Source of the DNA: a virus | IMG/VR virus record: IMGVR_UViG_3300020573_000309 | Span: 1 to 31,054 of that record | Length of the DNA: 31,054 bases | Direction: 5' to 3' (one strand) | Shown here: positions 3,252 through 31,054 of the stretch, piece by piece | Numbering within the stretch: the first letter of the stretch is position 1 | Layout: the number at the start of each line of letters is the position of its first letter | Notes under the pieces: generated by a model | What the model was told of the DNA's origin: nothing | What the model saw: only the letters and a program-made list of their open reading frames with translations | The model's database searches: none | Program-made: the position numbers and the translations under genes

Positions 3252-4156
3252 TGATAAAGTTTGATTTAAAAAATAAAGCAGCAAGACCCGTACCTGATAT
3301 GGAGTTTTATTCTCAAGTTAAAAATTCTATATATTCTACAATTGATAACTTATATAATTCCGAATTACAATCAATTTTTTTAAAAAAATATAAAAATTGG
3401 ATACTAAATTCTAAAAATAATAAAATCATTGGATTGGATTCATTTAAAGAATTGACTTGCACATATGGAACGGCTCAATCTTTTGATGAGTGGTATTTTA
3501 AAAATAATAAAAAAAGATTAAGAATATTAAAAGGTGATTTTTTTTATCATTCAATTTGTACAAGAAATAAAATAGAATTTTGTTACTATGAAGATGCGGA
3601 TTTAAATGAAAATGATTTTATGATAATATCGGTACCATTTTCAGATAGTGGTAATGAACCTGATAATTTGGATAATATTTTAAAAAAATGTGAAGAGTTA
3701 AATATTCCAGTATTGATTGATTGTGCATATATGATTATGGCGGGTAATATAAATTTAAATTTAAATTATGATTGTATAAAATGTGTTTCTTTTAGCTTTA
3801 CTAAAGGATTTTATGGTTGCGAAAGATTAAGAATTGGAATTAGATTTAAAAAAGAATATGAAGATGATGGGATAGATGTTGCAAATTCTATGTGTATGAT
3901 ATCACCAATTGGATTAAAAGTTGCAATTGATATTATGGATAAATTTGACTTTGATTCTGTATATAACAAATATAGAAAGACACAATTAAAAATATGTAAA
4001 GAAAATAATCTAATTGCAAGCAAATCTGTTATATTCGGATTGGGTAATATTAGTGATTTAGAATTATCAATATTTAATAGAGGAACGAAATATAGAAGAA
4101 TTTGTTTATCCCAATTTATGGGAGATATGGAATTAGATAATTTAAAAAATAAATAA
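3251..4156 (+). CDS. Short PLP-dependent aminotransferase-like protein (fold type I)
   Basis: A 301-residue protein with the core signatures of fold-type-I PLP enzymes related to class I/II aminotransferases. D157 with Y160 (VLIDCAY) would contact the PLP pyridine nitrogen and ring. K185 in SFSFTKGFYG is the expected Schiff-base lysine. R192, R194 and R198 (CERLRIGIRF) follow as in the phosphate-binding segment. The family is normally about 380-400 residues, so this copy is short, mostly at the C-terminal small domain. Substrate and reaction cannot be read from the sequence: an amino-sugar or amino-acid transamination, or a side reaction, are all possible. It sits between two paralogous glycan-type genes and directly abuts the oxygenase at 4157, so it may supply or modify a group placed on a glycan. 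Confidence 0.72.
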   Translation: MIKFDLKNKAARPVPDMEFYSQVKNSIYSTIDNLYNSELQSIFLKKYKNWILNSKNNKIIGLDSFKELTCTYGTAQSFDEWYFKNNKKRLRILKGDFFYHSICTRNKIEFCYYEDADLNENDFMIISVPFSDSGNEPDNLDNILKKCEELNIPVLIDCAYMIMAGNINLNLNYDCIKCVSFSFTKGFYGCERLRIGIRFKKEYEDDGIDVANSMCMISPIGLKVAIDIMDKFDFDSVYNKYRKTQLKICKENNLIASKSVIFGLGNISDLELSIFNRGTKYRRICLSQFMGDMELDNLKNK

Positions 4157-4660
4157 ATGTATAAATTTTTAGGAAATTACGATTTTGATTTTACGATAAA
4201 TTTACAAGATTTTAAATTTAGAGACAATAAAGTAAATCATTATGATGATTCATTTGATTTGGAATCAAAGGCAGCAATTAAAGCTGGTTATGGTGAAAAT
4301 ACAAATGTTGAAAAATCTTATTATGAAGATTATCCAAACTATATGATTGAATACATTAAAAAATTCCCAATAGAAATGGTTAATACGAATTTTCATTATC
4401 ACAAACCAGGATATTTTATATCACCTCATAGAGACCATTTTAGAGGAATAACTGATAAAAAAAATAAAACACCATATAGAATATGTGTTTTTATGAATGA
4501 CTGGAGTTTTGGCCAAGTTTTAATGATAGGTGATTCCGTTTTATCAAATTGGAAAAAAGGAGATGCGTGGATGTGGGATAGTACAGAATTACACATGTCT
4601 TCAAATGGTTCGTTGGAAAATAAATTAACATTAATAATATCAGGTTTTATAAATGATTAA
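4157..4660 (+). CDS. 2-oxoglutarate/Fe(II)-dependent oxygenase-like protein
   Basis: A 167-residue double-stranded beta-helix protein. The iron triad is readable as H91-x-D93 (SPHRDHF) and a distal H146 (DSTELHMSSN), the usual HxD...H pattern. K156 in the last strand (NKLTLIISGF) may take the place of the arginine or lysine that binds 2-oxoglutarate. Enzymes of this class hydroxylate or otherwise oxidise proteins, small molecules or sugars. The gene starts immediately after the stop of the PLP gene and overlaps or abuts the following paralogue B, so it belongs to the same AT-rich cassette. This is the first of three such oxygenases in the window (also 21508 and 26597). The substrate is unknown. 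Confidence 0.78.
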   Translation: MYKFLGNYDFDFTINLQDFKFRDNKVNHYDDSFDLESKAAIKAGYGENTNVEKSYYEDYPNYMIEYIKKFPIEMVNTNFHYHKPGYFISPHRDHFRGITDKKNKTPYRICVFMNDWSFGQVLMIGDSVLSNWKKGDAWMWDSTELHMSSNGSLENKLTLIISGFIND

Positions 4661-4661
4661 A

Positions 4662-6008
4662 ATGAATAGTAGAATATCTTTAGTTTATGATAGAATTTTA
4701 TATGATTCACCCATACCAAATGGTGTATCTTGGTCTGTTATAAAAAATATTTTTAAAAATTATGGTGAAATTGATTTTTTAAATGAATACGTTAATAAAC
4801 ACACCGAATTATATAATGTTCCACCATCGGTAAATAATTCATTTTTAAGTAGTGAAGTATTTAGTAATATAAATTTTAAAAATTCAAATCAAATAATATT
4901 CGATTATATAGCAGAACGATTGAACTATGAATTTATTTATCCAATAGAAAGTTTTAGTAGATTCTTTACTTGTTTAGGATATGAAAGTGATGTACAATTG
5001 ACCGATTTATTAAATGGTATAATTGAAGATGAAAAAAGTTTTTTTAATTTTATTAATGAGGATATATTAAAAATAATAAAAGAAAAAAAAGGATACATTT
5101 TACTAAATCATGCACATGAGGGAGATGCGAATAAACTTGATATACTATTAATTAAAAAATTATTAAATAAATATGGAATACCCAAAGATAGATTTATATA
5201 TGTTTATAATTCATTTGATTTAGAAGGAATAAATTTTAAAAATTATAATTTTCAATGGCATTTAGCTAGGAAATCGACAGAAACACTTAAATTATACGAA
5301 TCCCAATTATTAAATGAAAATAATATATTTCAAAAACAAAATAAATTTAATTACCCAATTAGAAGGTTTAGAGGACATAGAATGGAATTATTAGAAAAAC
5401 TATGGTATTATGATAAAAATTTTATTAATGAAAATTTGGTATCATATGATATTGATGTTGAAAATAACAAAGGTGCACTTAGAAATTTTACAAAAGAGTT
5501 TGTAGATTTTATAAAAGAATCCAAAAGAAAAGTTATAGATACTGAGGATATGGAATCGGTTCAAGGATATAGAACTGAAAATAAATGGGTATATGAACAA
5601 TCTTATTTTTCAATAGTTGCGGAAACTATGTTTTATGAAAATTATAATTACGTTAGTGAAAAGACATATAAACCGATTGCACATCAACATCCGTTTATAT
5701 TATTAGGTAGAGCAAACACATTAAAATTTTTAAAACAATTGGGTTTCAAAACATTTTCACCATTTATAGATGAAAGTTATGATTCAGAAATGGATGATAA
5801 AAAACGATTTGAAATGATATATAACGAAATCATAAGATTAAATTCTTTATCAAACGAAGAATGTGATGAAATATTAAAATCTTTAAACGATATTCTTATT
5901 TTTAATCAAACCCATTTAATTGAAATTAATAGAGATTTAAAATATGAATATAAATTCGGAAATTATATTCATAGTTTACTTTTTCCAAAAAGAAATGAAT
6001 TAATATGA
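4662..6008 (+). CDS. Putative glycosyltransferase-like protein, paralogue B
   Basis: Paralogue of the protein at 1923, 448 residues from this start. It shares the N-x2-HEG spot (GYILLNHAHEG) and the SEKTYKPIAHQHPFILLG segment, followed by LGFKTFSPFIDESYD. I chose the ATG at 4662 because the protein then begins MNSRISLVYDRI, matching MNKIAIAYDRI of paralogue A. An in-frame ATG at 4653 would add three residues and overlap the upstream oxygenase by 8 bases. The N-terminal halves of the two paralogues are strongly diverged while the last 110 residues are close, down to identical DNA blocks of 43 and 37 bases. The function is presumably as for paralogue A, with a different acceptor or donor. The stop overlaps the next start by 4 bases (ATGA). 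Confidence 0.7.
   Translation: MNSRISLVYDRILYDSPIPNGVSWSVIKNIFKNYGEIDFLNEYVNKHTELYNVPPSVNNSFLSSEVFSNINFKNSNQIIFDYIAERLNYEFIYPIESFSRFFTCLGYESDVQLTDLLNGIIEDEKSFFNFINEDILKIIKEKKGYILLNHAHEGDANKLDILLIKKLLNKYGIPKDRFIYVYNSFDLEGINFKNYNFQWHLARKSTETLKLYESQLLNENNIFQKQNKFNYPIRRFRGHRMELLEKLWYYDKNFINENLVSYDIDVENNKGALRNFTKEFVDFIKESKRKVIDTEDMESVQGYRTENKWVYEQSYFSIVAETMFYENYNYVSEKTYKPIAHQHPFILLGRANTLKFLKQLGFKTFSPFIDESYDSEMDDKKRFEMIYNEIIRLNSLSNEECDEILKSLNDILIFNQTHLIEINRDLKYEYKFGNYIHSLLFPKRNELI
5742..5784 (+). repeat. 43-base identical block in paralogue B
   Basis: Partner of 3003-3045. A further identical block of 37 bases is at 5874-5910 versus 3135-3171, coding the segment around SLNDILIFNQ. Confidence 0.85.
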
Positions 6009-7120
6009 TTGATAAATTAAAAAAATATGTTTGTAAAATTCCATTTAGACATATTGAAATATTTGAAGGAAGAACGCATTTATGTTGTGCGTCTTGGTTA
6101 CCACATCCAATATTTCATACATACGACAATGGTATAGAAAACATAGATGTTTGGAATCACGATTTTACAAAAGAAATAAGAGAATCAATGTTAGATGGTT
6201 CTTATAAATTTTGCAGTAAAGAATTGTGTCCTCATTTAAATACATTATTAAATACCAATCAAGTTCCCGATGTCTTTGTTGAAAAGACAAAATTACCATT
6301 TAAAGATTGGGATGGGTATGTTATATCGGATAACCCACACGTAAATTCAACACCTGCATCTATTAATTTTACATTTGATTGGAGTTGTAATTTAAAATGC
6401 CCATCATGCAGACTTGATTTTATAATGGCAGATGGTAGCAAAGTTGATAAAATAAATACAACAATAGATTTTATAAATAAATTTTACGCAAAGGATGTTA
6501 GAAAAATATTCATAACAGGTTCTGGAGACCCATTTGCATCAAAATCATTTAGAAAGTTTTTACAAGAGTTTGACCCAAAATTATATCCAAATATAATGGA
6601 CTTACATCTATCTACAAATGCAAATTTATTTAATAAAAAACAATGGGATTTAATTAAAAACGCACATCCATATATTAAAACGGTTGAAATATCAATTGAT
6701 GCAGCAACAAAGGAAACATATGAAAATGTAACAAGAGTTGGTGGTAAATGGGATATGTTAATGGAAAATTTAGATTTTATTGGTGAAATAGATTCCATAA
6801 GAGATTTAAGATTATCATTTGTAGTACAGCAAACAAATTATAAAGAGATGTTTGACTTTGTTAAATTAATTCATTCTAAATTTGAAAAAAGAATTAAAAG
6901 TAGAACTCAATTAAAAGAAACAACTGTATATTTTGGAAAAATTGCACATTGGGAAGCTATGAATAAAGAAATATATGAAAGACAAGCCGTATGGATGTCT
7001 ACTCATCCTGAATTTGATGAATTGGTAGAACAAATTAAAAATGTATATACTTACCAAAATAAAATAAATATTCAATCAAATATGACAGATTTAATAAATA
7101 ATGAAATACATTTAATATAA
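6005..7120 (+). CDS. Radical SAM protein with cysteine-rich N-terminal domain
   Basis: A 371-residue radical S-adenosylmethionine enzyme. C128-x3-C132-x2-C135 (SCNLKCPSCR) is the canonical motif for the [4Fe-4S] cluster that cleaves SAM. The downstream segments ITGSGDPF, the GGEP-like strand, and VEISIDAATKETYENVTRVGG fit the barrel core of the family. Before the barrel lies a cysteine-rich region, C10, C27-C28, C70 and C75, that looks like a SPASM-type auxiliary cluster domain placed N-terminally. SPASM/twitch proteins commonly modify peptides or carry out sugar chemistry, but nothing here fixes the substrate. It ends the AT-rich cassette behind the polymerase and overlaps paralogue B by 4 bases, so co-expression with the glycan genes is likely. 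Confidence 0.88.
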   Translation: MIDKLKKYVCKIPFRHIEIFEGRTHLCCASWLPHPIFHTYDNGIENIDVWNHDFTKEIRESMLDGSYKFCSKELCPHLNTLLNTNQVPDVFVEKTKLPFKDWDGYVISDNPHVNSTPASINFTFDWSCNLKCPSCRLDFIMADGSKVDKINTTIDFINKFYAKDVRKIFITGSGDPFASKSFRKFLQEFDPKLYPNIMDLHLSTNANLFNKKQWDLIKNAHPYIKTVEISIDAATKETYENVTRVGGKWDMLMENLDFIGEIDSIRDLRLSFVVQQTNYKEMFDFVKLIHSKFEKRIKSRTQLKETTVYFGKIAHWEAMNKEIYERQAVWMSTHPEFDELVEQIKNVYTYQNKINIQSNMTDLINNEIHLI

Positions 7121-8644: not shown

Positions 8645-9592
8645 ATGAGTTTTTTCGCAAACGATATAAACAAAAGAGAACATAGTTTGTGGGTGGAGAA
8701 ATACCGTCCACAAACTCTTGCTGACTATGTTGGTAATGAAACCATCAAAGAAACAATTCAGCAGTATTTAGATGCAAACGACATACCACATTTATTGTTG
8801 TATGGAAAAGCGGGCACGGGTAAAACCACACTTGCTAAACTAATCGTAAACACAATCAAATGTGACTTTATGATTATCAACGCATCGGATGAGAACAATG
8901 TTGATACGGTAAGAACAAAAGTTAAGAACTTTGCATCATCGGTTGGTTTTGCAGGTTTCAAAGTAATCATCTTAGATGAGTTTGATTATATGACACCAGG
9001 AGCACAAGCGATTTTGAGAAACTTAATGGAAACATTCAGCAAGCATTGTCGTTTCATCCTAACTTGTAACTACATTGAGAAAATCATTGACCCTATCCAA
9101 AGTAGATGTCAATCTTTCGCAATTACTCCTCCAACTAAAAAGGATGTTGCAGTTCAGGTAGCAAAGATATTAGATGCTGAAAAGATTAAGTATGAACCAA
9201 AGAATATGGCTGATGTGATTAATTCATATTATCCAGATATTAGAAGAATACTTAATACTTGTCAATTACAATCTGCAAAGGGAGAATTGAAAGTAGACCA
9301 TAGAGTAATGGTTGAAGCAAACTTTGCAACCAAACTTATTGACCTTTTAAAAGAAAGTGATGATAAGAGGAATATGTTTATGAAAATTAGACAGGCAGTA
9401 GCAGACAACAAATTAAACGATTATTCGGAAATGTATACAATGTTATACGACAAAGTGGATGAATACGCAACAGGAAATGTAGCAAATGTGATTTTAACTA
9501 TTGCAGATGGTCTTTCAAAAGATGCATTAGTAGTAGATAAAGAAATCGTATTTATGTCTACAATTATACAAATATTAAACATAATAAAATAA
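8645..9592 (+). CDS. 44: Clamp loader ATPase, large subunit (T4 gp44-like)
   Basis: AAA+ ATPase of 315 residues (T4 gp44 is 319) that with gp62 opens and loads the sliding clamp. Visible: the RFC-type entry WVEKYRPQTLADYVG, Walker A G54-KAGTGKT-T61, Walker B with D111-E112 (IILDEFD), sensor 1 at TCNY, and the trans-acting arginine finger S153-R154-C155 (IQSRCQSF). The remaining C-terminal part is helical and would form the collar. Neighbours are clamp, dUTPase, a zinc-ribbon protein and gp62, matching a T4-type replication cluster in which other small genes have been inserted. Its stop overlaps the next start (TAATG). Confidence 0.95.
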   Translation: MSFFANDINKREHSLWVEKYRPQTLADYVGNETIKETIQQYLDANDIPHLLLYGKAGTGKTTLAKLIVNTIKCDFMIINASDENNVDTVRTKVKNFASSVGFAGFKVIILDEFDYMTPGAQAILRNLMETFSKHCRFILTCNYIEKIIDPIQSRCQSFAITPPTKKDVAVQVAKILDAEKIKYEPKNMADVINSYYPDIRRILNTCQLQSAKGELKVDHRVMVEANFATKLIDLLKESDDKRNMFMKIRQAVADNKLNDYSEMYTMLYDKVDEYATGNVANVILTIADGLSKDALVVDKEIVFMSTIIQILNIIK

Positions 9593-9831
9593 TGGAACAA
9601 CAACAACAATTACCACCGAATTTTAATTTAAATGACGCAAGAGATATGGATTGTGATTGTGGTGGAAAGATTTTCTTACCAGGTTATAGATTCAAAAAAA
9701 TTAGTAGATTACTAACAGGTGCACCAAAGGATTCGGTTATGCCGATTGAATTGTATGTATGTGCAACTTGTGGTAAACCTTTAAATGAATTACTTCCACA
9801 AGAACTACAAGAAACAAAAATCATAGAATAA
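9592..9831 (+). CDS. Small zinc-ribbon-like protein between gp44 and gp62
   Basis: A 79-residue protein with two cysteine pairs, C21-x-C23 (CDCGG) and C57-x2-C60 (CATCGKPL), spaced as in a zinc ribbon. The knuckles are linked by a basic segment (GYRFKKISRLL). The N-terminus is a glutamine/proline-rich tail and the C-terminus is acidic. I do not recognise a named family. It sits exactly between the two clamp-loader subunits, sharing one base with each neighbour (TAATG on both sides), which points to a role tied to replication or clamp-dependent transcription, though this is inference from position. Confidence 0.75.
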   Translation: MEQQQQLPPNFNLNDARDMDCDCGGKIFLPGYRFKKISRLLTGAPKDSVMPIELYVCATCGKPLNELLPQELQETKIIE

Positions 9832-10280
9832 TGGCACAAAAGTTATTTGACCATATTAATGCAATAACTACCATACAAGACCCAAAGTATTTTGACAAAC
9901 TTTCAGAAGAAGATTTAAAAACTTGGAGTAACTTTATGATTAATAGATTTTTATCAATGAAGCCTGAATGGGTTGAATTGATTGCGTCTATATTACCCCT
10001 AACTCAAACTCTTTCCCCCAAAGAAATGTATAGTTTGTATATTAATGTTATTCCAAAAGGTAAATACTTTTTGAAATACATTAAAGGAAAATCCGAAGAT
10101 AAATACGAACAGTTCATAGTAGACCTTCTAAAGAAAGAATACGATTGTTCAGAAAATCAGGCAATTGATTATTTAGAGGTTCTTTATTCAACAAGAGAAG
10201 GTAGAGAATATATGAAATATGTTTGTGAAAAATATGGTATAGATAAAAAGCAGATAACTAAACTAAAACTTAAGATATAA
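9831..10280 (+). CDS. 62: Clamp loader small subunit (T4 gp62-like)
   Basis: Partner of gp44 in the clamp loader; the protein is 149 residues, shorter than the 187 of T4 gp62. The match is seen in the pattern LFDHINAI...DPKYF versus FFEIIGAIN...DYSKF of T4, in VIPKGKYFLKYIKGK versus AVPRGKRYGKW, and in LLKKEYDCSENQAIDYLEVL versus LLAKRYQVNTNDAINYKSIL. It has no ATPase motifs, as expected. The C-terminus is lysine-rich. It closes the replication run: the next gene has its own promoter-like element in the gap. The distant similarity plus position make the call fairly strong. Confidence 0.85.
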   Translation: MAQKLFDHINAITTIQDPKYFDKLSEEDLKTWSNFMINRFLSMKPEWVELIASILPLTQTLSPKEMYSLYINVIPKGKYFLKYIKGKSEDKYEQFIVDLLKKEYDCSENQAIDYLEVLYSTREGREYMKYVCEKYGIDKKQITKLKLKI

Positions 10281-11225: not shown

Positions 11226-12608
11226 ATGGCAAAAAAGAAGATTCTGTTATTGGCGGATGATTTAAGAATGGCAAGTGGTATTGCAAATGTTTCTAAGCAA
11301 TTAGTTTTAGGAACTGTTGATAAATATGATTGGGTACAATTAGGTGCAGCAATCAAACATCCTGAAGCAGGTAAAGTATTTGATTTAAACGATAGTGTTA
11401 GAGAACAAACAGGAGTTCAGGACGCAAGTGTTAAAATATATCCATTTGATGGTTATGGTAATGCCGATGTAATTCGTCAATTACTAATGGTTGAAAAACC
11501 TGATGCAATTTTACACTTTACCGACCCGAGATATTGGTTATGGTTATATGATATTGAGCATGAAATTAGACAAACTTGTCCTTTATTCTTTTATCATATT
11601 TGGGATGATTTACCAGACCCTAAATATAATAGAGATTACTACGAAAGTTGTGATTGGATTGGATGTATTTCAAAACAAACATATGGTATTACCCGTAGAG
11701 TTTGGGGTTGGGATAAAGAAAAACATTGGACTAAGCCTGCAGATTGGCAAGTAAGTTATGTACCACATGGTATCAATTCGGATTTATATAAACCAGTTGA
11801 AGTTCCAAAAGATTTTAAAGAAAGTATATTTGGAGATAAAGAATATGAATTTGTTCTTTATTGGAACAATAGAAATATTCGTAGAAAACAACCAATTGAT
11901 GTAATCTTAGCATTTGACAAATTTGTAGAAGCATTAAGACCCGAAGAAAGAAGTAAAGTGTGTTTATTAATGCACACTGCTCCTGTTGAAGAACATGGAA
12001 CGGATTTACCAAGAACAATTGCAGAATGTTGTTCACCTGAAACCAATGTAGTATTTGCACCAAATAGATATTCTGAGGAACAATTAAATTGGTTATATAA
12101 TATAGGTGATGTGACAATTAATGTGGCATCCAATGAAGGATTTGGTTTAGCAACGGCAGAATCAGTAATGGCAGGAACACCAATTATAGTAACGGTTACA
12201 GGTGGTTTACAAGACCAATGTGGATTTAGAGAAAATGGTACAGGTAGATTACTGACCGCAGAAGATTATGTTGAAATTGGTTCTTTACATGATAGACATA
12301 GAAAAGCGGGTGTAGTTTGGGGTGATTGGGTTAAACCAATTTGGCCAGTTCGTTCTACGACAGGTTCGGTTCCTACTCCATATATCTTTGATGATAGAGT
12401 TGATTTTGAAGATATTACTCCATTGATTATGGATTGGTATAAAATGCCAAAAGAAGATAGAGATGCAGCTGCATTAAAAGGTAGAAAACATTTCTTAGGA
12501 GAAGGATTGTTAAGTAGAGAAGCAATGTGTAAAGAATTAGTCGATGGTATGGAAGGTGCATTTGAAAATTGGAAACCGAAACAAAAATTTAAATTAATAG
12601 AGTTATAG
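11226..12608 (+). CDS. Glycosyltransferase family 4-like (GT-B)
   Basis: A 460-residue GT-B fold glycosyltransferase that would transfer a sugar from a nucleotide donor with retention. The N-terminal Rossmann domain begins KKILLLADDLRMASGIANVS, with the glycine-bearing acceptor loop usual for GT4. The C-terminal donor domain has the E-x7-E signature around residues 303-311 (NEGFGLATAESVMAGTP), ending in an IIVTVTGG strand. The insertion between the usual elements (IWPVRSTTGSVP) is not familiar. It starts 21 bases after the nuclease gene and is followed after one base by a second GT4 gene. Donor and acceptor are unknown. Confidence 0.9.
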   Translation: MAKKKILLLADDLRMASGIANVSKQLVLGTVDKYDWVQLGAAIKHPEAGKVFDLNDSVREQTGVQDASVKIYPFDGYGNADVIRQLLMVEKPDAILHFTDPRYWLWLYDIEHEIRQTCPLFFYHIWDDLPDPKYNRDYYESCDWIGCISKQTYGITRRVWGWDKEKHWTKPADWQVSYVPHGINSDLYKPVEVPKDFKESIFGDKEYEFVLYWNNRNIRRKQPIDVILAFDKFVEALRPEERSKVCLLMHTAPVEEHGTDLPRTIAECCSPETNVVFAPNRYSEEQLNWLYNIGDVTINVASNEGFGLATAESVMAGTPIIVTVTGGLQDQCGFRENGTGRLLTAEDYVEIGSLHDRHRKAGVVWGDWVKPIWPVRSTTGSVPTPYIFDDRVDFEDITPLIMDWYKMPKEDRDAAALKGRKHFLGEGLLSREAMCKELVDGMEGAFENWKPKQKFKLIEL

Positions 12609-12609
12609 T

Positions 12610-13878
12610 ATGAAACCAACATTAGTATTTCAGGCACCAATAGCAACAAGAAGTGGATATGGTGACCACGCGAGAGATTTATTACATTCTCTTTATAAAT
12701 TAGATAAATTTGAAATTAAAGTAATTAGTACTCGTTGGGGTAATACTCCAATGGATTCACTCAATTATGATAATCCATTTCATAAGTGGATAGTTGATAG
12801 TATTATTCCAAAAGTAGAACAAAAGCCTGACATTTATATTCAGGTTACTGTACCAAATGAATTTCAAGCAGTAGGACATTATAACATTGGAATTACCGCA
12901 GCAATTGAAACAACACATTGTCCATTAGATTGGGTGCATGGTTGTAATAGAATGGATTTAATTATAGTACCATCTGAACATTCAAAAAAGAGTTTAGTAG
13001 ATAGTGTTTATAATGAGGCCGACAACAATACAAAGCAATTAATAGCACAACATAGAATTCAAAAACCAGTTGAGATTCTTTTTGAAGGATTTGATGAAAT
13101 GGATTTTGGAACCGATGATGTGGTGAATGTAACTGAATTAGATACAATCAAAGAAGATTTTGCTTTCTTATTCGTAGGACATTGGTTGAGAGGTGATTTG
13201 GGTGAAGATAGAAAGAATGTGGGAATGATGATTAAGTCATTTGCAATGGCATTCAAAAACGAAAAGGTTAAACCAGCATTAGTTCTTAAAACTAGTTCAG
13301 CAGGATTTAGTGTAATAGATAGAGAAACTACTATTAAAAAAATTAAAGAGGTATTGGGAAAAGATTATAAGTCGGTTCCAATTTATCTTTTACATGGTGA
13401 CTTAACTCCATCCGAAATGAATGGGTTATATGAACACAAAAAGGTAAAAGCAATGTTAAACTTTACAAAAGGTGAAGGATTTGGTAGACCTCTTTTAGAA
13501 TTTAGTTTGACAGGTAAGCCGGTTATCGTAAGTAATTGGAGTGGACACATTGATTTCTTAAAACAAGGTGCAGTATTATTAGAAGGTGAGTTAAAACCTG
13601 TACATGAATCAGCAGCAGACCAATTCCTTTTAAAAGAATCACAATGGTTTAATGTAAATATTTCAAAAGCATTAGTTGCAATGAAGGATGTTTATAAAAA
13701 TTATAACAAATATAAAACCGAATCATCTAAATTGGGAAAACACAATAAACAAACATTTAGCTTAACAAAGATGACAGAAGGATTTGATACCATTTTAAAT
13801 CAGTATGGTATTTATAGTAAGATACAACCAAAATTCCAACAATTACAATTACCAAAATTGAAAATGTTAAGCAAATAA
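12610..13878 (+). CDS. Glycosyltransferase family 4-like (GT-B), second copy
   Basis: A 422-residue GT-B enzyme. The N-terminus reads FQAPIATRSGYGDHARDLL, the typical GT4 acceptor-side loop. The donor domain carries FTKGEGFGRPLLEFSLTGKPVIVS, where the two glutamates about eight residues apart form the E-x7-E motif, and the GHWLRG strand precedes it. A proline/glutamine-rich C-terminal tail is probably flexible. It differs strongly from the gene at 11226, so this is not a recent duplication. Its stop overlaps the next start (TAATG). The two GT4 genes probably act in sequence on one glycan, but this is inferred only from adjacency. Confidence 0.9.
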   Translation: MKPTLVFQAPIATRSGYGDHARDLLHSLYKLDKFEIKVISTRWGNTPMDSLNYDNPFHKWIVDSIIPKVEQKPDIYIQVTVPNEFQAVGHYNIGITAAIETTHCPLDWVHGCNRMDLIIVPSEHSKKSLVDSVYNEADNNTKQLIAQHRIQKPVEILFEGFDEMDFGTDDVVNVTELDTIKEDFAFLFVGHWLRGDLGEDRKNVGMMIKSFAMAFKNEKVKPALVLKTSSAGFSVIDRETTIKKIKEVLGKDYKSVPIYLLHGDLTPSEMNGLYEHKKVKAMLNFTKGEGFGRPLLEFSLTGKPVIVSNWSGHIDFLKQGAVLLEGELKPVHESAADQFLLKESQWFNVNISKALVAMKDVYKNYNKYKTESSKLGKHNKQTFSLTKMTEGFDTILNQYGIYSKIQPKFQQLQLPKLKMLSK

Positions 13879-14351
13879 TGATAAATTATAATCCAATATA
13901 TCGAAAATTCATAGATGATAGATATGTAATTAGTCCAAATAAAATGACAAGAGGTAAATTTTATTTGATTAAAGAATACGAATATGTGGATGGTACAAAG
14001 GGTAGATATAGTGATACAACTGCACCTATAATCTATACTTTATTTGCATCTGTATCCAAAGATATTGTACATGCCGTTAAAGTATCAAATATAAGTCCAC
14101 AAATAATAAAAAGATTTTTTGGCAAATTTATCAATGAAGATACGGAATTATTAGAAATGAAAGGTGGTGCAAAAAAATTCTATAAAGAAATTGTTTCAAA
14201 AATTCCTGTTGTATCAAATGATTCATATAGGACTTATAAAATAAGTGGATTTGGTAAAGTTATAGAATTGAATATGGATGTAAATGAATTGACCCCAAAA
14301 AGTAAAAATGTAATTGGAATAGATAAAAAATCACAAAAAAGAATATCATAG
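13878..14351 (+). CDS. Hypothetical phage protein
   Basis: A 157-residue basic protein I cannot assign. The opening, with RGKFYLIKEYEYVDG followed by IIYTLFASVSKDIVHAVKVSNISPQIIKRFFGKF, resembles a small beta-sheet module seen repeatedly in large phage genomes beside structural or glycan genes, but no function is known to me. There are no catalytic motifs, membrane spans or cysteines. It overlaps the GT4 gene upstream by one base and is 2 bases before the next gene, so it is part of the same transcription unit. Confidence 0.65.
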   Translation: MINYNPIYRKFIDDRYVISPNKMTRGKFYLIKEYEYVDGTKGRYSDTTAPIIYTLFASVSKDIVHAVKVSNISPQIIKRFFGKFINEDTELLEMKGGAKKFYKEIVSKIPVVSNDSYRTYKISGFGKVIELNMDVNELTPKSKNVIGIDKKSQKRIS

Positions 14352-14353
14352 TT

Positions 14354-14770
14354 ATGACATCAAAAGAATTCGTTATTTGGTTAAAAGGATTTACGGAAGG
14401 AGTGCATGAATTTGCAATTACTCCAAAACAATGGGATTACTTAAAAGAAAAGTTAGCAGAAGTAGATGACAATACAATCCCTATGGGTGGAGTAATTGTA
14501 GACCATAATACATTTAAAACAGTTTATCCAAATTGGACAGGAATTAATCCATACGGAACAAGAGGACCTGAAACACCGACGGGAACAACAATTACAACAA
14601 CACCTGGAACTACCGGATTTATTACAATTGCCAATCCAAATATAGCATCATTTGGTACAGGTAGTACGGGTATTTTAAATACATATAACCCATCAACATC
14701 AACTACATATGGATACCCGAGTGGTTCTGCATGGAGTTATACAAATTCAACAGACGAAAAAATATTTTAA
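14354..14770 (+). CDS. Small phage protein with Ser/Thr/Gly-rich tail
   Basis: A 138-residue protein in two parts. Residues 1-40 (MTSKEFVIWLKGFTEG..., ITPKQWDYLKEKLAEV) form a helical module that recurs in many tailed phages without known function. From about residue 65 the chain is low complexity, dominated by Thr, Ser, Gly, Pro and Asn, with runs such as GTTITTTPGTTG and PSTSTTYGYPSGS, and probably disordered. Its place between GT4 and GT2 glycosyltransferases makes this tail a candidate O-glycosylation acceptor, which is inference only. The stop overlaps the start of the next gene (TAATG). Confidence 0.7.
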   Translation: MTSKEFVIWLKGFTEGVHEFAITPKQWDYLKEKLAEVDDNTIPMGGVIVDHNTFKTVYPNWTGINPYGTRGPETPTGTTITTTPGTTGFITIANPNIASFGTGSTGILNTYNPSTSTTYGYPSGSAWSYTNSTDEKIF

Positions 14771-15393
14771 TGAAATTAAGTTACGCAATAACGGCTTGTA
14801 ATGAAGTCGAAGAAACAATTAGACTGGTAAATCAATTATTAAACTACAAAGAAGAAAATTCGGAAATTGTAGTGCTATTAGATACACCAAAAGCACCTGT
14901 TGAATTGGTTGAGTATTTGGAATTACAAGGTAAGGCAGACCACATTACACTTATTGAATCCGAATTTGATAATGATTTTGCACAATGGAAAAACTTATTA
15001 AACTCACAATGTAAAGGTGAGTGGATATTTCAGTTAGATGCCGATGAATATTTAACACCGGACTTAATTGTTAATATGGAATCCCTGTTGGATGCAAACA
15101 CCGATAAGGATATGATTGTCGTTCCAAGAATCAATACAGTTGAAGGATTGACCGACGCACATATTCAAAAGTGGGGATGGAACGTAAATGAAAAGGGCTG
15201 GGTAAATTTTCCAGATGTTCAAACTCGTATTTACAAAAACTCAGACAAAATTGGATGGATGAATAAAGTACATGAGAGGATAGTTGGGTTTGAATCATAT
15301 ACATCATTTCCAGCAGATGAAATATATTGTATTAGACATCCTAAAACAATCGAAAGACAAGAGAAACAAAATAACTACTACGATACTTTATAA
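14770..15393 (+). CDS. Glycosyltransferase family 2 (GT-A), WaaE/LgtF-like
   Basis: A 207-residue GT-A transferase. It begins KLSYAITACNEVEETI, the usual GT2 opening, and has the metal/donor-binding D90-A-D92-E93 (FQLDADEYLTPDL). The later part, KGWVNFPDVQTRIYKN...IGWMNKVHERIVG, matches the pattern of the WaaE/LgtF group that adds glucose to the lipopolysaccharide inner core. I start at the ATG at 14770, which overlaps the previous stop; an upstream in-frame ATG at 14731 would add 13 residues lying inside the previous gene. The similarity suggests a hexose transferred to a core-type sugar, without proof. Confidence 0.88.
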   Translation: MKLSYAITACNEVEETIRLVNQLLNYKEENSEIVVLLDTPKAPVELVEYLELQGKADHITLIESEFDNDFAQWKNLLNSQCKGEWIFQLDADEYLTPDLIVNMESLLDANTDKDMIVVPRINTVEGLTDAHIQKWGWNVNEKGWVNFPDVQTRIYKNSDKIGWMNKVHERIVGFESYTSFPADEIYCIRHPKTIERQEKQNNYYDTL

Positions 15394-16022
15394 TGGTTCA
15401 TGTATATTATCACATATATGCAATAGATGGAGTAGAGTCTATAATAGATGAACAACTTAATCTAATTAAAAATCATTTTGATTTTCCTTACATATTAAAT
15501 ATTGGCGTTTCTATTGCAGATGAAAATGTATCAACAACAAATATAGTAGAAAAAATAAAATCAAATCTAAGAGATGTTCGTAGTAAAGGTAATGAGTGGA
15601 CTACTTTAGATTTAATAAGAAACGACTTAGAAAAATTTGGTGATTCCGATTATATTTTGTATATTCATACAAAGGGTGCATCTAAACAAAATGATTTTCA
15701 ATATTCAAACATAATAAGTTGGAGACACCTTATGAATTATTTTAATATTGAAAAAGTAAAAAATGTATTTAAATTATTTGAAAAAACCGAATTTAATACA
15801 TATGGTGTAATGTTTAACGGCCGATTTTATAGCGGAAATTTTTGGTGGGCAAAGGGTGATTATTTAAAAACTATAAATTTAGATGGTTTAAGATTAAATA
15901 GAGCGGCCGCAGAAACCAATTATATTCAAAATGGAAAAGATTGGAAACCATACTCACCATATAATAATGAAAGTAATAATGATTATGGAACACATTTTAA
16001 AAGAGAAGAATATTCAAAATGA
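15393..16022 (+). CDS. Glycosyltransferase-like protein with HTKG motif
   Basis: A 209-residue protein of a type found among polysaccharide genes. The diagnostic spot is H92-T-K-G95 (YILYIHTKGASKQ), followed later by GNFWWAKGDYL, which together recall the HTK-containing domain of rhamnan synthesis RgpF-like proteins and related phage proteins. No DxD is visible. It lies between a GT2 and a GT-B gene, with one-base and four-base overlaps, so a transferase or glycan-processing role is likely. The exact reaction cannot be stated. Confidence 0.7.
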   Translation: MVHVYYHIYAIDGVESIIDEQLNLIKNHFDFPYILNIGVSIADENVSTTNIVEKIKSNLRDVRSKGNEWTTLDLIRNDLEKFGDSDYILYIHTKGASKQNDFQYSNIISWRHLMNYFNIEKVKNVFKLFEKTEFNTYGVMFNGRFYSGNFWWAKGDYLKTINLDGLRLNRAAAETNYIQNGKDWKPYSPYNNESNNDYGTHFKREEYSK

Positions 16023-16888
16023 AGATAACATTTATATACGACTATAAACCAAATGAAATCTGGTCAACACCACTATCTTTATTAAATGAATTTAAAGAAA
16101 GAGGTTGGGAAACCGAAATAGTTCCAATACCAAATGGTGATGATTCCGCATTACAATTGTGGATTCAACAAGATACACCAACCGATATTGTATTATTTAT
16201 GGATTGGGGTAGATTTGATTCTAAATGGTTGGATAAAAGTCTAAAACCTACGGCATTTTGGATTCAGGAAAGTGGTGATGACCCTCAAAATTTTGAAAGA
16301 AATTATCCAAAAGCAAATCGTTTTCATTATACAATTACTCCTGATAGAGAAAGTGCAGAAGAATATAGAAAACGAGGTATTGATTGTGATTGGGTTCCAC
16401 ATTGGGCAGATACTATGGTTCAGTTTCCAATGAATTTAGAACCTGAATATGTGGGCGTAACAAGCAGAGGTATAGGTGGTTCTGAATTTTTAGATTATCT
16501 TACAAATTGGGCAGAGGGTGCTATTGGAAATCAAAATGGTATGAATGCAGAAGAACACACTAAATTTTTGAATACTGGTTTAATGGTTATTCAAAACAGT
16601 AGATGGGGTGAAATAACTCGTAGAATTTTTGAAGGCATGGCTTGTGGTAAATTAGTATTGACCGATAGATTGGATGTAGTTAAGGGATTGGAAGAATTAT
16701 TTATAGATGGTGAAGAAATTGTTTTATATAATGATATGTTCGATTGTATTGAAAAAATGAACTATTATAATGAAAACGAAGAAGAAAGGGAAAAAATTGC
16801 ATATAATGGAATGGCAAAAGTTATATCAAATTATACACAAATACAAGTTGTCGATAGATTAATAGAAAAATTTAAAAATAAAGCATAA
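16019..16888 (+). CDS. Glycosyltransferase-like protein, CgeB type (GT-B)
   Basis: A 289-residue protein of the CgeB / Glyco_trans_1_2 type. The C-terminal donor-side element is readable at R201-G210 (RRIFEGMACGKLVLTDRL), containing E205 and followed by GLEELFIDGEEIVLYND, as in this family. The N-terminal half (KITFIYDYKPNEIWSTPLS...) is a Rossmann domain with a FWIQESGDDP strand resembling DUF3880. It overlaps both neighbours (ATGA upstream, TAATG downstream). Probably a retaining transferase; the sugar is unknown. Confidence 0.82.
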   Translation: MKITFIYDYKPNEIWSTPLSLLNEFKERGWETEIVPIPNGDDSALQLWIQQDTPTDIVLFMDWGRFDSKWLDKSLKPTAFWIQESGDDPQNFERNYPKANRFHYTITPDRESAEEYRKRGIDCDWVPHWADTMVQFPMNLEPEYVGVTSRGIGGSEFLDYLTNWAEGAIGNQNGMNAEEHTKFLNTGLMVIQNSRWGEITRRIFEGMACGKLVLTDRLDVVKGLEELFIDGEEIVLYNDMFDCIEKMNYYNENEEEREKIAYNGMAKVISNYTQIQVVDRLIEKFKNKA

Positions 16889-17535
16889 TGTATTTAGAAT
16901 TTATAATAGGAACAACTGCAAGACCACACCATTTGATGACAATGCTGGGTTCAATAAAAGCACAAACCAAAGGTAATTGTAAATGTCATATAATAAAAAA
17001 AGGTGACCCCGATGAAATGTATGATAAAGTTATTTCTTTTTATAAAAATAATGTTTTTGGAGACTATATGACATATACACAATTAAACAAAGCAATATCA
17101 GACCAATTCGAAGGGGAATTTAATTTATATGGAAATTTTGAATACGGTTTAAGTGTTGTTAATACAGATTGTGATTGGGTAATAATGACAAATGATGATA
17201 ACTATTATTCACAAGATACAATTAAAATATTAAACAAAGTAATAGAAAAAAATCCAAATGTAAATTTAATTTATTTTGATATGTTATACAATTCGGATAT
17301 GATAGACTCTACCGGTGAATATATTGGTTCATATGAATACTACAAGACATCTTTAGAATTTGGTTTAAATGATTTAGGTTGCTTTGCTTATAGAGCAAAT
17401 TTAACAAAAGACATAAAATTTGATAGAACTATTATGGAAGCTGATTTTTTATTTTTAAAAGAATATATTGAAAAGAATTGCCAAAACCCAGACCAAATAG
17501 AAAAAATAAATAAAGCACTTTTTATACACAATTAA
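16888..17535 (+). CDS. Glycosyltransferase-like protein, GT-A (family 2-like)
   Basis: A 215-residue GT-A protein. It starts LEFIIGTTARPHHLMTMLGSIKAQ, the family 2 opening in which a short strand is followed by a helix. The DxD equivalent is N102-D103-D104 in WVIMTNDDNYYSQDTI. Acceptor-side residues are not recognisable. The gene is more AT-rich than the GT4 genes and overlaps the previous stop. It is probably one step of the same glycan assembly as its neighbours. Confidence 0.78.
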   Translation: MYLEFIIGTTARPHHLMTMLGSIKAQTKGNCKCHIIKKGDPDEMYDKVISFYKNNVFGDYMTYTQLNKAISDQFEGEFNLYGNFEYGLSVVNTDCDWVIMTNDDNYYSQDTIKILNKVIEKNPNVNLIYFDMLYNSDMIDSTGEYIGSYEYYKTSLEFGLNDLGCFAYRANLTKDIKFDRTIMEADFLFLKEYIEKNCQNPDQIEKINKALFIHN

Positions 17536-17537
17536 TT

Positions 17538-18278
17538 ATGGAAAAATTACCAATTAGTATAGGAATATTATCCTGGCATAGTGGACAAGTATTAGTAGAT
17601 ACACTAACTACATATTACGAAAATGGTTTATTGGATATGGTAAACGATGTTACTATTCTATTTCAGGAAGTCACACCACAAGATATGGAAATTGCAAGAC
17701 ATTTTGGATTGGATTTCATAGGTTTACAAAAGAACATTGGAATAGGTCAAGCATTTATTAGATTAACCGAAAACGCAAAAGAGGATTATGTTTTAGTATT
17801 AGAACATGATTGGAATTTGATTGAGGATAAACAAACTACATACGATAGATTAAAAAGAAGTTATCAAGCAATTGAAATGGGATTGGATGTTGTTCGTTTA
17901 AGACATAGAGCAAATCCAGGCAACCCACATTTTTCATTTAGACACAAGGGTAAAGAACTTACTTATTATGATGATGAAATCGGTTGTCAATCTCCACACT
18001 TATTGGATTCATTGCATTGGTTAGACCCATCCGTTGAATTTCCTGATTTAATTAAAAAATCGGAAGATATGTTTTGGACTACCTCTCGTTATGGTAATTG
18101 GACAAACAATCCATGTCTTTATAAAAAACAATTTTATTTAGATGTAGTTAGACCATTTGCAGGAGAAGGTATTGCATTAGAAGGAAACATTAGTAAGTGG
18201 TGGGCACAACAGGAATATAAAGTTGGACATGGTGAAGGATTATTTAAACACAATGATTGGCAAAAATATGGAAAATAA
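17538..18278 (+). CDS. Glycosyltransferase-like protein, GT-A, with EHDW motif
   Basis: A 246-residue GT-A-like transferase. The start PISIGILSWHSGQVLVDTL and E89-H90-D91-W92 (YVLVLEHDWNLI) give the nucleotide-sugar site, with H in place of one acidic residue of DxD. The C-terminal part has a tryptophan-rich stretch (FWTTSRYGNWTNNP) and EGNISKWW. The last 13 codons plus the stop occur a second time, at 22264-22305, with only synonymous differences. The gene lies two bases behind the previous one. The 13-codon reading that overlaps its end (18268-18309) is probably not a gene by itself. Confidence 0.78.
   Translation: MEKLPISIGILSWHSGQVLVDTLTTYYENGLLDMVNDVTILFQEVTPQDMEIARHFGLDFIGLQKNIGIGQAFIRLTENAKEDYVLVLEHDWNLIEDKQTTYDRLKRSYQAIEMGLDVVRLRHRANPGNPHFSFRHKGKELTYYDDEIGCQSPHLLDSLHWLDPSVEFPDLIKKSEDMFWTTSRYGNWTNNPCLYKKQFYLDVVRPFAGEGIALEGNISKWWAQQEYKVGHGEGLFKHNDWQKYGK
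18237..18278 (+). repeat. Direct repeat, copy 1: 3' end of the EHDW glycosyltransferase
   Basis: 42 bases coding GLFKHNDWQKYGK and stop. Copy 2 is at 22264-22305. By eye the two differ at five positions, all at third codon positions and all synonymous. In both copies an ATG in another frame overlaps the last codons: at 18268 here it opens a 13-codon reading, in copy 2 at 22295 it opens the long transferase/methyltransferase gene. Confidence 0.85.
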
Positions 18279-18312: not shown

Positions 18313-19599
18313 ATGATATATTTAAATAATATTAAGGGATTGGTAGGAAACCATGTAGCACCTTATATTTACAATGCAAAAACATTTGAAGCAGGTAAAA
18401 CGCCAATTTACTATTCAGGCCCATATTGGGATAACAAAGAAATAGAAGCAGCAATTGATACTTTCTTAAATGGTAAATGGATTACCGCAGGTGAAAAAGT
18501 TTATAAGTTTGAAAATAAATTTAGTAAAAAAATCAATGTTAAACATTCGCATATGGTTAATTCAGGTAGTTCTGCTAACTTAGTATTAATAGCTGCATTA
18601 AAGAAAAGATTTAATTGGGCAGATGATGATGAAATTATTGTATCATCAGTCGGATTTCCGACTACAATTTCAGTATTGTATCAGCATAGATTAAAGCCGA
18701 TATTTATTGACATTGAGTGGGATACATTAAACTTTGATTTAAACCAAATTGAATCAAAAATTACTGAAAAAACAAAAGGTATATTTGTATCACCTGTTTT
18801 AGGTAATCCTCCAGATATGGATAGATTGCAAGAGATTGCCGATAAGTATGATTTAAAGATAATTGGTGATAATTGTGATTCTTTGGGTACAAAATGGAAT
18901 GATAAACCATTAACTGACTACTATGTGGCATTTTCAAATTCATTCTATCCTGCACATCATATATCCACGGGTGAAGGTGGAATGATTTGTACAAACGATG
19001 ATGAACTGAAAGCATTATTTGTAAGTTATTCATGGTGGGGTAGAGATTGTTATTGTATCGGTTCTGCAAACTTATTACCATGTGGAACTTGTGGAAATAG
19101 ATTTGACAAATGGTTAGAAAACTACGATGATGTAATTGACCATAAATATGTTTTCAGTAATATGGGTTATAATTTAAAACCATTGGATTTACAAGGAGCA
19201 ATTGGAATTGTTCAATTAGAAAAATTAGATGAAATTGAAACAAATAGACGAAGAAGTAAAGAAAGACTTACTCAAATATTTGTTAACAATATACCTGGAT
19301 TAAGAGCTCCATCCAAATTAGATAAAGCTGACCCATGTTGGTTTGGAACACCATTTATTTGTGACGAACCAGAATTAAAACATAGATTGGTTACATTTTT
19401 AGAGGAAAATAAAATTCAAACAAGAAACTACTTTGCAGGAAATATTTTATTACATCCAGGATACGCATTCTTAGATGATTTTAAAAATTATCCAGAAGCA
19501 AACAAAGTATTAGATAAGGTATTCTTTATTGGAGCAGCACCTCATTATACTGATATGGTATTTGATTATATTGAAGAAGTTGTTAAAAAATTCAAATAA
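18313..19599 (+). CDS. rfbH: RfbH-type sugar-nucleotide 3-dehydratase (DegT/DnrJ/EryC1 family, PMP- and Fe-S-dependent)
   Basis: A 428-residue DegT-family protein that matches RfbH/DdhC (E1), the CDP-6-deoxy-4-hexulose 3-dehydratase that removes the C3 hydroxyl to start 3,6-dideoxyhexose synthesis. In NSFYPAHHISTGEGG the PLP-linking lysine of aminotransferases is replaced by H215, as in E1 (H220). Cysteines C188, C246 and C248 reproduce the C-x57-C-x1-C spacing that I recall for the [2Fe-2S] ligands of E1, with C257 or C260 as the fourth. The block RFDKWLENYDDVIDHKYVFS, then NMGYNLKPLDLQGAIGIVQLEKLD, is also RfbH-like. ColD, the other His-type dehydratase, lacks the cysteines. E1 needs a reductase partner (E3), which is not in the window. 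It starts a four-gene sugar module. Confidence 0.9.
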   Translation: MIYLNNIKGLVGNHVAPYIYNAKTFEAGKTPIYYSGPYWDNKEIEAAIDTFLNGKWITAGEKVYKFENKFSKKINVKHSHMVNSGSSANLVLIAALKKRFNWADDDEIIVSSVGFPTTISVLYQHRLKPIFIDIEWDTLNFDLNQIESKITEKTKGIFVSPVLGNPPDMDRLQEIADKYDLKIIGDNCDSLGTKWNDKPLTDYYVAFSNSFYPAHHISTGEGGMICTNDDELKALFVSYSWWGRDCYCIGSANLLPCGTCGNRFDKWLENYDDVIDHKYVFSNMGYNLKPLDLQGAIGIVQLEKLDEIETNRRRSKERLTQIFVNNIPGLRAPSKLDKADPCWFGTPFICDEPELKHRLVTFLEENKIQTRNYFAGNILLHPGYAFLDDFKNYPEANKVLDKVFFIGAAPHYTDMVFDYIEEVVKKFK

Positions 19600-28872: not shown

Positions 28873-29319
28873 ATGATATACCTTTTCACAGGTCAACCCG
28901 GAAGTGGTAAAACTACTCTGGCTAAAAAGTTACAAATGTGGTTACAAACTGATAAGAAAAATTGGAGAAAATCCGTATTTCATATTGACGGAGACCAATT
29001 AAGAGAACTATTCCCAAATACAGATTATTCCAAAGAAGGAAGATACAAGAACATTAACAAAGCATTTGATATAGCAAAGTTTTTAGACGCATCAGGGAAT
29101 GATGTCGTAATCAGTTTAGTTAGTCCTTATAAAGAATTAAGAGAGGAATTTAAGTCTCAATGCAAGGTACAAGAGATATATTGTCATACTAAAAAAATTA
29201 GAGGTAGAGAAGATAAGTTTGCGTTAGACTACGAACCACCTACGGAATTTTATGTAGACTTAGACACATCGGAAAATACGGATGATACCTTTAAAAAATT
29301 AATAAAAATGTTACTATAA
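28873..29319 (+). CDS. P-loop kinase, adenylylsulfate (APS) kinase-like
   Basis: A 148-residue P-loop kinase. Walker A is G7-QPGSGK-T14, followed by the APS-kinase-like HIDGDQLRELF and the EGRYKNI segment, where CysC proteins bind the substrate. VVISLVSPYKELREEF is the typical next strand. CysC makes PAPS, the sulfate donor for sulfotransferases; however, no sulfotransferase is visible here. Alternatively, with the HAD gene upstream, it may be part of a split polynucleotide kinase/phosphatase pair. It overlaps the SGNH gene by one base. Confidence 0.8.
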   Translation: MIYLFTGQPGSGKTTLAKKLQMWLQTDKKNWRKSVFHIDGDQLRELFPNTDYSKEGRYKNINKAFDIAKFLDASGNDVVISLVSPYKELREEFKSQCKVQEIYCHTKKIRGREDKFALDYEPPTEFYVDLDTSENTDDTFKKLIKMLL

Positions 29320-30201: not shown

Positions 30202-30807
30202 ATGGAAAATGAAAACCAAGAAGTAGAAGGGTTTTTCCCAAATTTAGAAAATAGTAGAACTACAAAAAGAGGATTGGGTGCACGACCTTTAATGGAATCC
30301 CAAATCAAAGCAGCACAAGAAAAATCACGTTCGGCATTTGAAGCCGCAAGAACATTGGGTGTATCTTATAACACATATAAGAAATACGCAAAGATGTATG
30401 GTGTATTTGACGACCTTAAGAACCCATATGGTATTGGCATTGAAAAGGCCAAAACAATCAAAAACAAAAAATATCATATTGATGATATTATTGAAGGTAA
30501 ACACTTACACTACCCATTACATAAATTTAAAAACAAACTATTTAATAGTGGATATATTCCAAAAATTTGTAGTAGTTGTGGGTTTAGTGAAGAAAGAATT
30601 ACGGATGGTAAAATGCCACTATTAATTGACTTTCTTGATGGAAATTTGAATAATAGAAAATTAGACAATATTAGAGCATTATGTTATAATTGCTTTTTCT
30701 TATTAGTAGGTGAACGAAATGTAAAAAATTGGTACGCAGAAAACGGAGGACAAATAACAGAAGATGAAGAGAAAAATTTACAGGAGCAAAGTTCCATTCA
30801 GAATTAG
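30202..30807 (+). CDS. HNH-fold DNA-binding protein lacking the HNH histidines
   Basis: A 201-residue protein with an N-terminal helix-turn-helix-like part (EAARTLGVSYNTYKKYAKMYGVF) and a C-terminal HNH-type zinc-binding domain with C123-x2-C126 (ICSSCG) and C161-x2-C164 (LCYNC). In the usual HNH order, the catalytic His of LIDH is F144 and the His after the second cysteine pair is F165, so nuclease activity is unlikely. Similar proteins are common in marine and freshwater T4-like phages. It is probably a DNA-binding regulator. It has its own short upstream gap (30162-30201), and the following gene overlaps its end by 44 bases. Confidence 0.8.
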   Translation: MENENQEVEGFFPNLENSRTTKRGLGARPLMESQIKAAQEKSRSAFEAARTLGVSYNTYKKYAKMYGVFDDLKNPYGIGIEKAKTIKNKKYHIDDIIEGKHLHYPLHKFKNKLFNSGYIPKICSSCGFSEERITDGKMPLLIDFLDGNLNNRKLDNIRALCYNCFFLLVGERNVKNWYAENGGQITEDEEKNLQEQSSIQN

Positions 30808-31054
30808 TTTTGGTGGTGGTGGAACGGATATGCCTGATTATTGCAAGTATCATACTGGTGCTGTAATCAATACCACCATTCGTTTATTCACCCACACATC
30901 TTTAGAATTAAGAGATGATACCAAAGTTACCTTTAAATGGATAAATAAAGACGAATTTGAGGAGCATGAATTTAGTGATGACTTAGATTGTTCATACGGA
31001 TTAAAACTCTTTAAAGCAACTCATAATCACATTTGTAAACGATATAATGTAGAA
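30764..31054 (+). CDS. hddA: GHMP-family sugar kinase (HddA-like), 3'-truncated by window edge
   Basis: The window ends within this gene; 97 codons are visible from the ATG at 30764, without a stop. The opening KRKIYRSKVPFRISFGGGGTDMPDY, containing the PFRISFGGGGTD core, is the hallmark of D-glycero-D-manno-heptose 7-phosphate kinase (HddA) and related sugar kinases of the GHMP family, where the Gly-rich segment positions the sugar substrate. GAVINTTIRLFTH follows as expected. It would make a sugar-1-phosphate for GDP- or CDP-linked heptose. The start overlaps the previous gene by 44 bases in another frame. The rest of the gene would show the GHMP ATP-binding loop. Confidence 0.82.
   Translation, partial: MKRKIYRSKVPFRISFGGGGTDMPDYCKYHTGAVINTTIRLFTHTSLELRDDTKVTFKWINKDEFEEHEFSDDLDCSYGLKLFKATHNHICKRYNVE

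Follow-up and report, generated by a model that had tools for sequence, protein, structure and literature searches.

3,6-Dideoxy sugars occur rarely in bacterial surface glycans and are of antigenic importance there. What, then, does a phage do with a gene for the dehydration step at C3 of such sugars, on which nucleotide sugar does the enzyme act, and where do its electrons come from? These questions are raised by a 31,054-base virus record, the whole of which was analysed and is referred to here as the window. The initial annotation had proposed that it encodes an RfbH-type dehydratase with histidine in place of the PLP-binding lysine and with the cysteine spacing of the iron-sulfur enzyme E1. 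We consider it quite probable that the protein is a 3-dehydratase of the E1/SpnQ type, which would act most likely on dTDP-4-keto-6-deoxyglucose, draw on a general electron donor and provide its product to phage glycosyltransferases.

The gene and its surroundings

The window is assigned to a T4-like phage by its T4-like replication genes, a DNA polymerase (2-1906) and clamp loader subunits (8645-9592 and 9831-10280). From position 11226 onward it consists mostly of glycan genes (Table 1). The dehydratase gene is read cleanly from ATG to TAA, and the strand opposite is full of stops.

Table 1. Location of the dehydratase gene, its putative active-site codons and the adjoining genes in the window
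Feature	Position	Strand	Basis or remark
Run of glycosyltransferases and other genes, some of unassigned family, upstream of RfbH	11226..18278	+	
RfbH/E1-type NDP-4-keto-6-deoxyhexose 3-dehydratase, 428 aa	18313..19599	+	Sequence match, invariant residues, tree, fold
Codon of C188, putative cluster ligand 1 (E1 C193)	18874..18876	+	Alignment and conservation
Codon of H215, at the place of the PLP lysine (E1 H220)	18955..18957	+	Alignment and conservation; K in 3bb8
Codons of C246-Y-C248, putative cluster ligands 2 and 3 (E1 C251, C253)	19048..19056	+	Alignment and conservation
Clade-specific longer loop, 11 residues versus 7, ending at C260, putative ligand 4 (E1 C261)	19057..19092	+	Model confidence low at residues 250-258
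RmlD-like short-chain reductase, 228 aa	19599..20285	+	Start overlaps RfbH stop by 1 nt; likely 4-keto reductase partner
Sugar C-methyltransferase, 408 aa	20282..21508	+	4-nt (ATGA) overlap with reductase
ORF of unassigned family, 218 aa	21508..22164	+	Start overlaps methyltransferase stop by 1 nt; without Pfam match

Relation to E1 and active-site residues

The best solved relative of the protein is E1 (CDP-6-deoxy-L-threo-D-glycero-4-hexulose-3-dehydrase) with 3.3e-76 (phmmer against PDB), followed by the E1 H220K mutant and by ColD at 6.5e-50. The alignment to E1 is full-length at about 33-40% identity and proceeds without gaps over residues 119-221 (E1 124-226), which places C188 at E1 193 and H215 at E1 220; in 3bb8, the entry of the E1 H220K mutant, a lysine is found opposite H215. 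C246 and C248 correspond to E1 251 and 253, and C260 corresponds to E1 261 past a 4-residue insertion. H215, which H216 follows, and C188, C246, C248, C257, and C260 are present where the initial annotation had located them, and the E1 features it named (H220, C193, C-x57-C-x1-C) agree with the alignment.

An alignment of 57 diverse viral and cellular relatives, which share 33-85% identity with the window protein, contains 42 invariant columns. D186, which is assigned to PLP binding, C188, H215, C246, C248, and C260 are all among them, and the match of the histidine and the cysteines to E1 is therefore not due to chance. The other four cysteines (226, 257, 342, 350) are not invariant in these relatives. 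The ligand set considered initially holds for C188, C246, and C248. C257 is ruled out as a ligand, as its position is variable and several relatives have Q, G, N or S there; as read from the sequence, the fourth candidate is C260. The motif is C-X57-C-X1-C-X11-C in the window protein, with a final spacing of X7 in canonical RfbH.

The predicted structure points in the same direction. An AlphaFold2 model based on the 57 sequences reaches a mean pLDDT of 90.9, and Foldseek ranks E1 (3bcx/3bb8) first (E 7.7e-39, TM 0.85-0.87, 33-34% identity), with ColD next. Residues 250-258, the longer loop leading to C260, fall below a pLDDT of 50 and are hence poorly modelled, so that this model gives no proof that the cysteines cluster.

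Sequence and fold thus support the protein well as a member of the E1-type Fe-S dehydratases, and the proposal of such an enzyme in a phage, with His for Lys, is borne out. The NCBIfam RfbH model PRK15407 scores 358.9 bits, far above any other family, yet below the curated cut-off of 423; the protein is an RfbH relative outside the RfbH equivalog as defined by NCBI.

A mostly viral clade

Viral relatives were collected in a single IMG/VR scan, which yielded 71 loci, about 60 of them in a main group with 60-94% identity to the window. An unannotated 2.6-kb record of Salmonella phage S.Kent (H8) was left out, as it may represent bacterial DNA. Cellular relatives derive from a single genome scan. 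At 50-58% identity they comprise Nitrosomonadaceae, Bacteriovoracaceae, Polyangiaceae, Prochlorococcus, Rhodospirillales, an actinobacterium, and Nitrospirae, and those outside this group are all at 41% or below.

In a tree obtained by a quick search and supported by SH-aLRT only, a branch with support 99 separates viral genes (about 65 loci) and 8 rare cellular genes from the canonical RfbH genes of cells (30 in the tree). ColD-like genes, which encode the histidine but lack the cysteines, form a clade of their own (support 100). The window gene itself sits in an all-viral set of 22 rows with support 99. The division is mirrored by the spacing between the third and fourth cysteine: in the mostly viral clade, 33 of the 38 rows have 11 residues there and five have 12 or 13, whereas the spacing is 7 throughout the 30 canonical rows, including one with Met in place of the third cysteine.

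Two other classes of enzyme had to be considered. An ordinary DegT aminotransferase is ruled out by clade, by fold, and by the lack of a lysine at the PLP position, where the alignment places the histidine; no clustering with such aminotransferases is seen in the tree. A cluster-free enzyme of the ColD type is ruled out by the four invariant cysteines and the separate clade.

With E1/AscC/DdhC/RfbH (CDP-4-keto-6-deoxy-D-glucose 3-dehydratase), the phage protein has in common the fold, the histidine in place of lysine, D186, and four aligned cysteines with the X57 and X1 spacings. In contrast, the phage clade is separate, spaces cysteines 3 and 4 by 11-13 residues rather than 7, lacks a CDP-glucose 4,6-dehydratase partner, and is paired with an SDR or RmlD-like reductase. 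ColD (GDP-4-keto-6-deoxymannose 3-dehydratase) shares the fold, the pyridoxamine phosphate (PMP) mechanism and His for Lys; however, it has no cluster and needs no electron donor (PMC8987622), and ColD-like viral genes constitute a different clade.

The occurrence of rfbH among viral genes is already known. Passages of two reports name rfbH/ddhC/ascC among the viral auxiliary genes of offshore oligotrophic waters (PMC10653327) and rfbH for sargassum-associated viruses (PMC11295528); these passages list the gene without residue, clade or pathway analysis and without a dTDP context. In cyanophage S-H68, a related gene is annotated with the name of the CDP enzyme. The new part is the mostly viral clade together with its dTDP context.

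Within the tree, two phage genes are sisters of Prochlorococcus genes (L076:7950-9254 with L083:9974-11281, and L074:9953-11248 with L087:4441-5751). These pairs suggest an exchange of the gene between cyanophages and Prochlorococcus genomes.

Reductase partners and downstream genes

Among 58 main-clade viral loci with enough flank, 56 carry a short-chain reductase at position +1 or +2, which is a 271-aa SDR in 26 cases and a 228-aa RmlD-like protein, as in the window, in 30. The 271-aa SDR is approximately 48-56% identical to a cellular SDR: at 6 of 9 loci of the cellular relatives, this SDR overlaps the start of the dehydratase gene. The 228-aa protein contains GxGxxG and Y117-xxx-K121, both invariant in 19 homologues, and dTDP-4-dehydrorhamnose reductases make up most of its solved relatives. 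Further downstream, the methyltransferase has its closest solved relative in D-mycarose 3-C-methyltransferase (TylC3; 3.9e-60), whose substrate is a dTDP-sugar. In the 642-kb phage LR756502 (L073:9227-10645), the RmlD-like reductase constitutes one portion of a 472-aa protein, the start of which overlaps the RfbH stop.

The pairing also bears on whether the protein might serve in the cell mainly as a sugar aminotransferase, forming a 4-amino sugar. It belongs to the DegT fold family, and SpnQ, when deprived of its reductase, transaminates using PLP and glutamate (PMC8987622). We regard this role as very improbable: the histidine in place of lysine and the four cysteines are kept across viruses and cells, which argues for selection on the redox reaction, and the gene is almost always accompanied by a reductase.

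Which nucleotide sugar

The closest characterised relatives, E1 and RfbH, use a CDP-sugar (PMC8987622). Along this line, the phage enzyme could deoxygenate host-made CDP-4-keto-6-deoxyglucose towards sugars of the CDP-abequose/paratose type, as does RfbH of Salmonella or Yersinia. The gene contents speak against it. CDP-glucose 4,6-dehydratase was found above cut-off in none of the 34 viral records, which are fragments, so that these absences are weak, and in only 2 of 9 cellular genomes of the mostly viral clade versus 11 of 12 with canonical RfbH. A CDP pathway from phage genes is without support. The Nitrosomonadaceae genome L079 contains both forms: its ddhA-ddhB-rfbH-like cluster includes a second, canonical RfbH (L161), which the CDP genes accompany, and the clade form and its SDR reside on another contig. 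A counter-case is given by the Bacteriovoracaceae genome L080, where a CDP-glucose 4,6-dehydratase is located on the same contig approximately 18 kb from the gene; no canonical RfbH was found in the 16 kb around that dehydratase.

The partner reductases and other neighbours are of the dTDP type. In Marine virus AG-345-D19 (L076), RmlB (361.7 bits), SDR, and RfbH follow one another with overlapping ends. In L063 and L064, RmlB is the next gene 3' of RfbH; in L065, it lies two genes on. Cyanophage RN05-S has RmlB at 382.5 bits and RmlC at 221.6 bits, each exceeding its cut-off, beside an SDR of the clade type in the same island. Among the cellular loci, rmlA/rmlB adjoin the L080 module, rmlB is found near L082, and an rml operon lies 11-14 kb from L083. 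RmlB was not found in the window itself. The lack of CDP-glucose 4,6-dehydratase in the viral records and the presence of RmlB beside several relatives thus render a CDP role doubtful, and we rate CDP as the least probable of the three nucleotides considered. Of the initial label, the E1-type Fe-S dehydratase stands, and the specific designation as a CDP-RfbH does not.

A GDP-sugar is possible for some viral records, since 13 of the 34 encode GMD (348-453 bits), usually with a GDP-fucose-synthase-like gene; in L005 and similar relatives, the two are located 2-3 genes upstream of RfbH. The enzyme might then be an Fe-S counterpart of ColD that converts GDP-4-keto-6-deoxymannose, provided by the phage GMD, to a GDP-3,6-dideoxyhexose. 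However, GMD and the fucose-synthase-like gene already constitute a self-contained fucose pathway, strong GMD matches are lacking in the closest relatives L002/L003 and many others, and the GMD/Fcl pair of cyanophage S-CAM7 adjoins a ColD-like gene instead. GDP is accordingly unlikely, if marginally less so than CDP. We consider dTDP the probable nucleotide.

Electron donor

The initial annotation concluded from the lack of an obvious E3 gene nearby that the phage depends on ferredoxin or flavoprotein of its host. Neither a plant-type ferredoxin (Fer2) nor E3 was found in the 34 viral records. An E3-like gene was likewise not found beside the 30 canonical cellular RfbH genes, as judged by a regex scan with no positive control. 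The missing E3 near the phage gene is thus uninformative, and we dropped it as evidence for a host donor. Where contigs are comparable, Fer2 matches occur elsewhere in genomes with canonical RfbH.

Use of host ferredoxin or flavodoxin is nevertheless plausible by analogy to SpnQ (dTDP-4-keto-2,6-dideoxyglucose 3-dehydratase), which works with either of them and their reductases (PMC8987622). By its description, SpnQ combines Fe-S chemistry of the E1 type, a dTDP-sugar and a general ferredoxin or flavodoxin (PMC8987622), all of which resemble the scheme considered here; the substrate of the phage enzyme, in contrast, probably retains its 2-hydroxyl. Actinobacterial homologues (Streptomyces, Umezawaea) fall into the canonical X7 clade, SpnQ itself being outside the alignment. 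The cyanophages RN05-S and S-B43, isolates with a related gene, encode a ferredoxin of their own of about 100 aa.

Proposed pathway

From homology, residue conservation, fold, clade and gene partners, all read from the sequence, we infer catalysis, cluster assembly, nucleotide, electron donor and final target as follows, with E1, ColD, and SpnQ as the template (PMC8987622). PMP, held without a lysine, would form a Schiff base at the 4-keto group of a nucleotide-activated 6-deoxyhexose, most likely dTDP-4-keto-6-deoxyglucose supplied by the host or, in relatives, by a phage RmlB. H215 would remove the PMP proton, whereupon the C3 hydroxyl departs. The glucoseen-PMP adduct would be reduced in two one-electron steps via a [2Fe-2S] cluster on C188, C246, C248, and C260, with electrons presumably from a general ferredoxin or flavodoxin and not from a dedicated E3. 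The predicted product is an NDP-4-keto-3,6-dideoxyhexose, the C4 of which would be reduced by the overlapping RmlD-like reductase. In the window phage, the TylC3-like methyltransferase may add a C-methyl branch. Phage glycosyltransferases could then transfer the finished sugar to decorate an envelope glycan of the host or the virion.

More tentatively, and with slightly less than even confidence, we extend this scheme to the mostly viral clade as a whole. Its Fe-S 3-dehydratases and their dedicated reductases may generate dTDP-3,6-dideoxyhexoses from dTDP-4-keto-6-deoxyglucose for phage-directed glycans, in the window with a C-methyltransferase yielding a branched sugar. This would constitute a third nucleotide route beside those via CDP (abequose, paratose, tyvelose, ascarylose) and GDP (colitose). 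No paper on such a dTDP route was found, which is weak evidence of novelty, as most subscription journals lie outside the literature searched. A mostly viral branch with its own cysteine spacing, reductase partners and neighbours of the dTDP type would demonstrate that phages keep up an Fe-S sugar chemistry of their own while infecting, rather than only borrowing O-antigen genes of their hosts.

Further observations

In cyanophages S-CAM7 (L078:4025-7083) and ACG-2014f (L077:3990-7107), two nucleotide-sugar SDR genes are followed by a ColD-like 3-dehydratase gene (His, no cluster cysteines). The SDR pair of S-CAM7 is annotated as GMD and GDP-L-fucose synthetase, and a GT11 gene follows the ColD-like gene. 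We regard this cluster as a possible GDP-colitose pathway of isolated cyanophages.

Two phage contigs (L062:9247-16211 and L066:9929-15414) carry both an Fe-S RfbH-type and a ColD-like 3-dehydratase, with an RmlB-like 4,6-dehydratase directly after the ColD-like gene. At the canonical cellular RfbH loci L102, L108, L113, and L134, a second DegT protein of the His type without cluster cysteines is encoded a few kb away.

The window further contains a pair of paralogous ORFs of about 450 aa each (1923-3251 and 4653-6008), the first of which has no Pfam match. Between them lie an ORF with weak matches to PLP enzymes (3251-4156) and a hydroxylase-like ORF (4157-4660), and a radical SAM gene (6005-7120) adjoins this region. 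Towards the end of the window, an APS-kinase-like protein is encoded at 28873-29319, and the window end truncates a D-glycero-D-manno-heptose 7-phosphate kinase-like gene (HddA), of which the 5' part is present (30764-31054).
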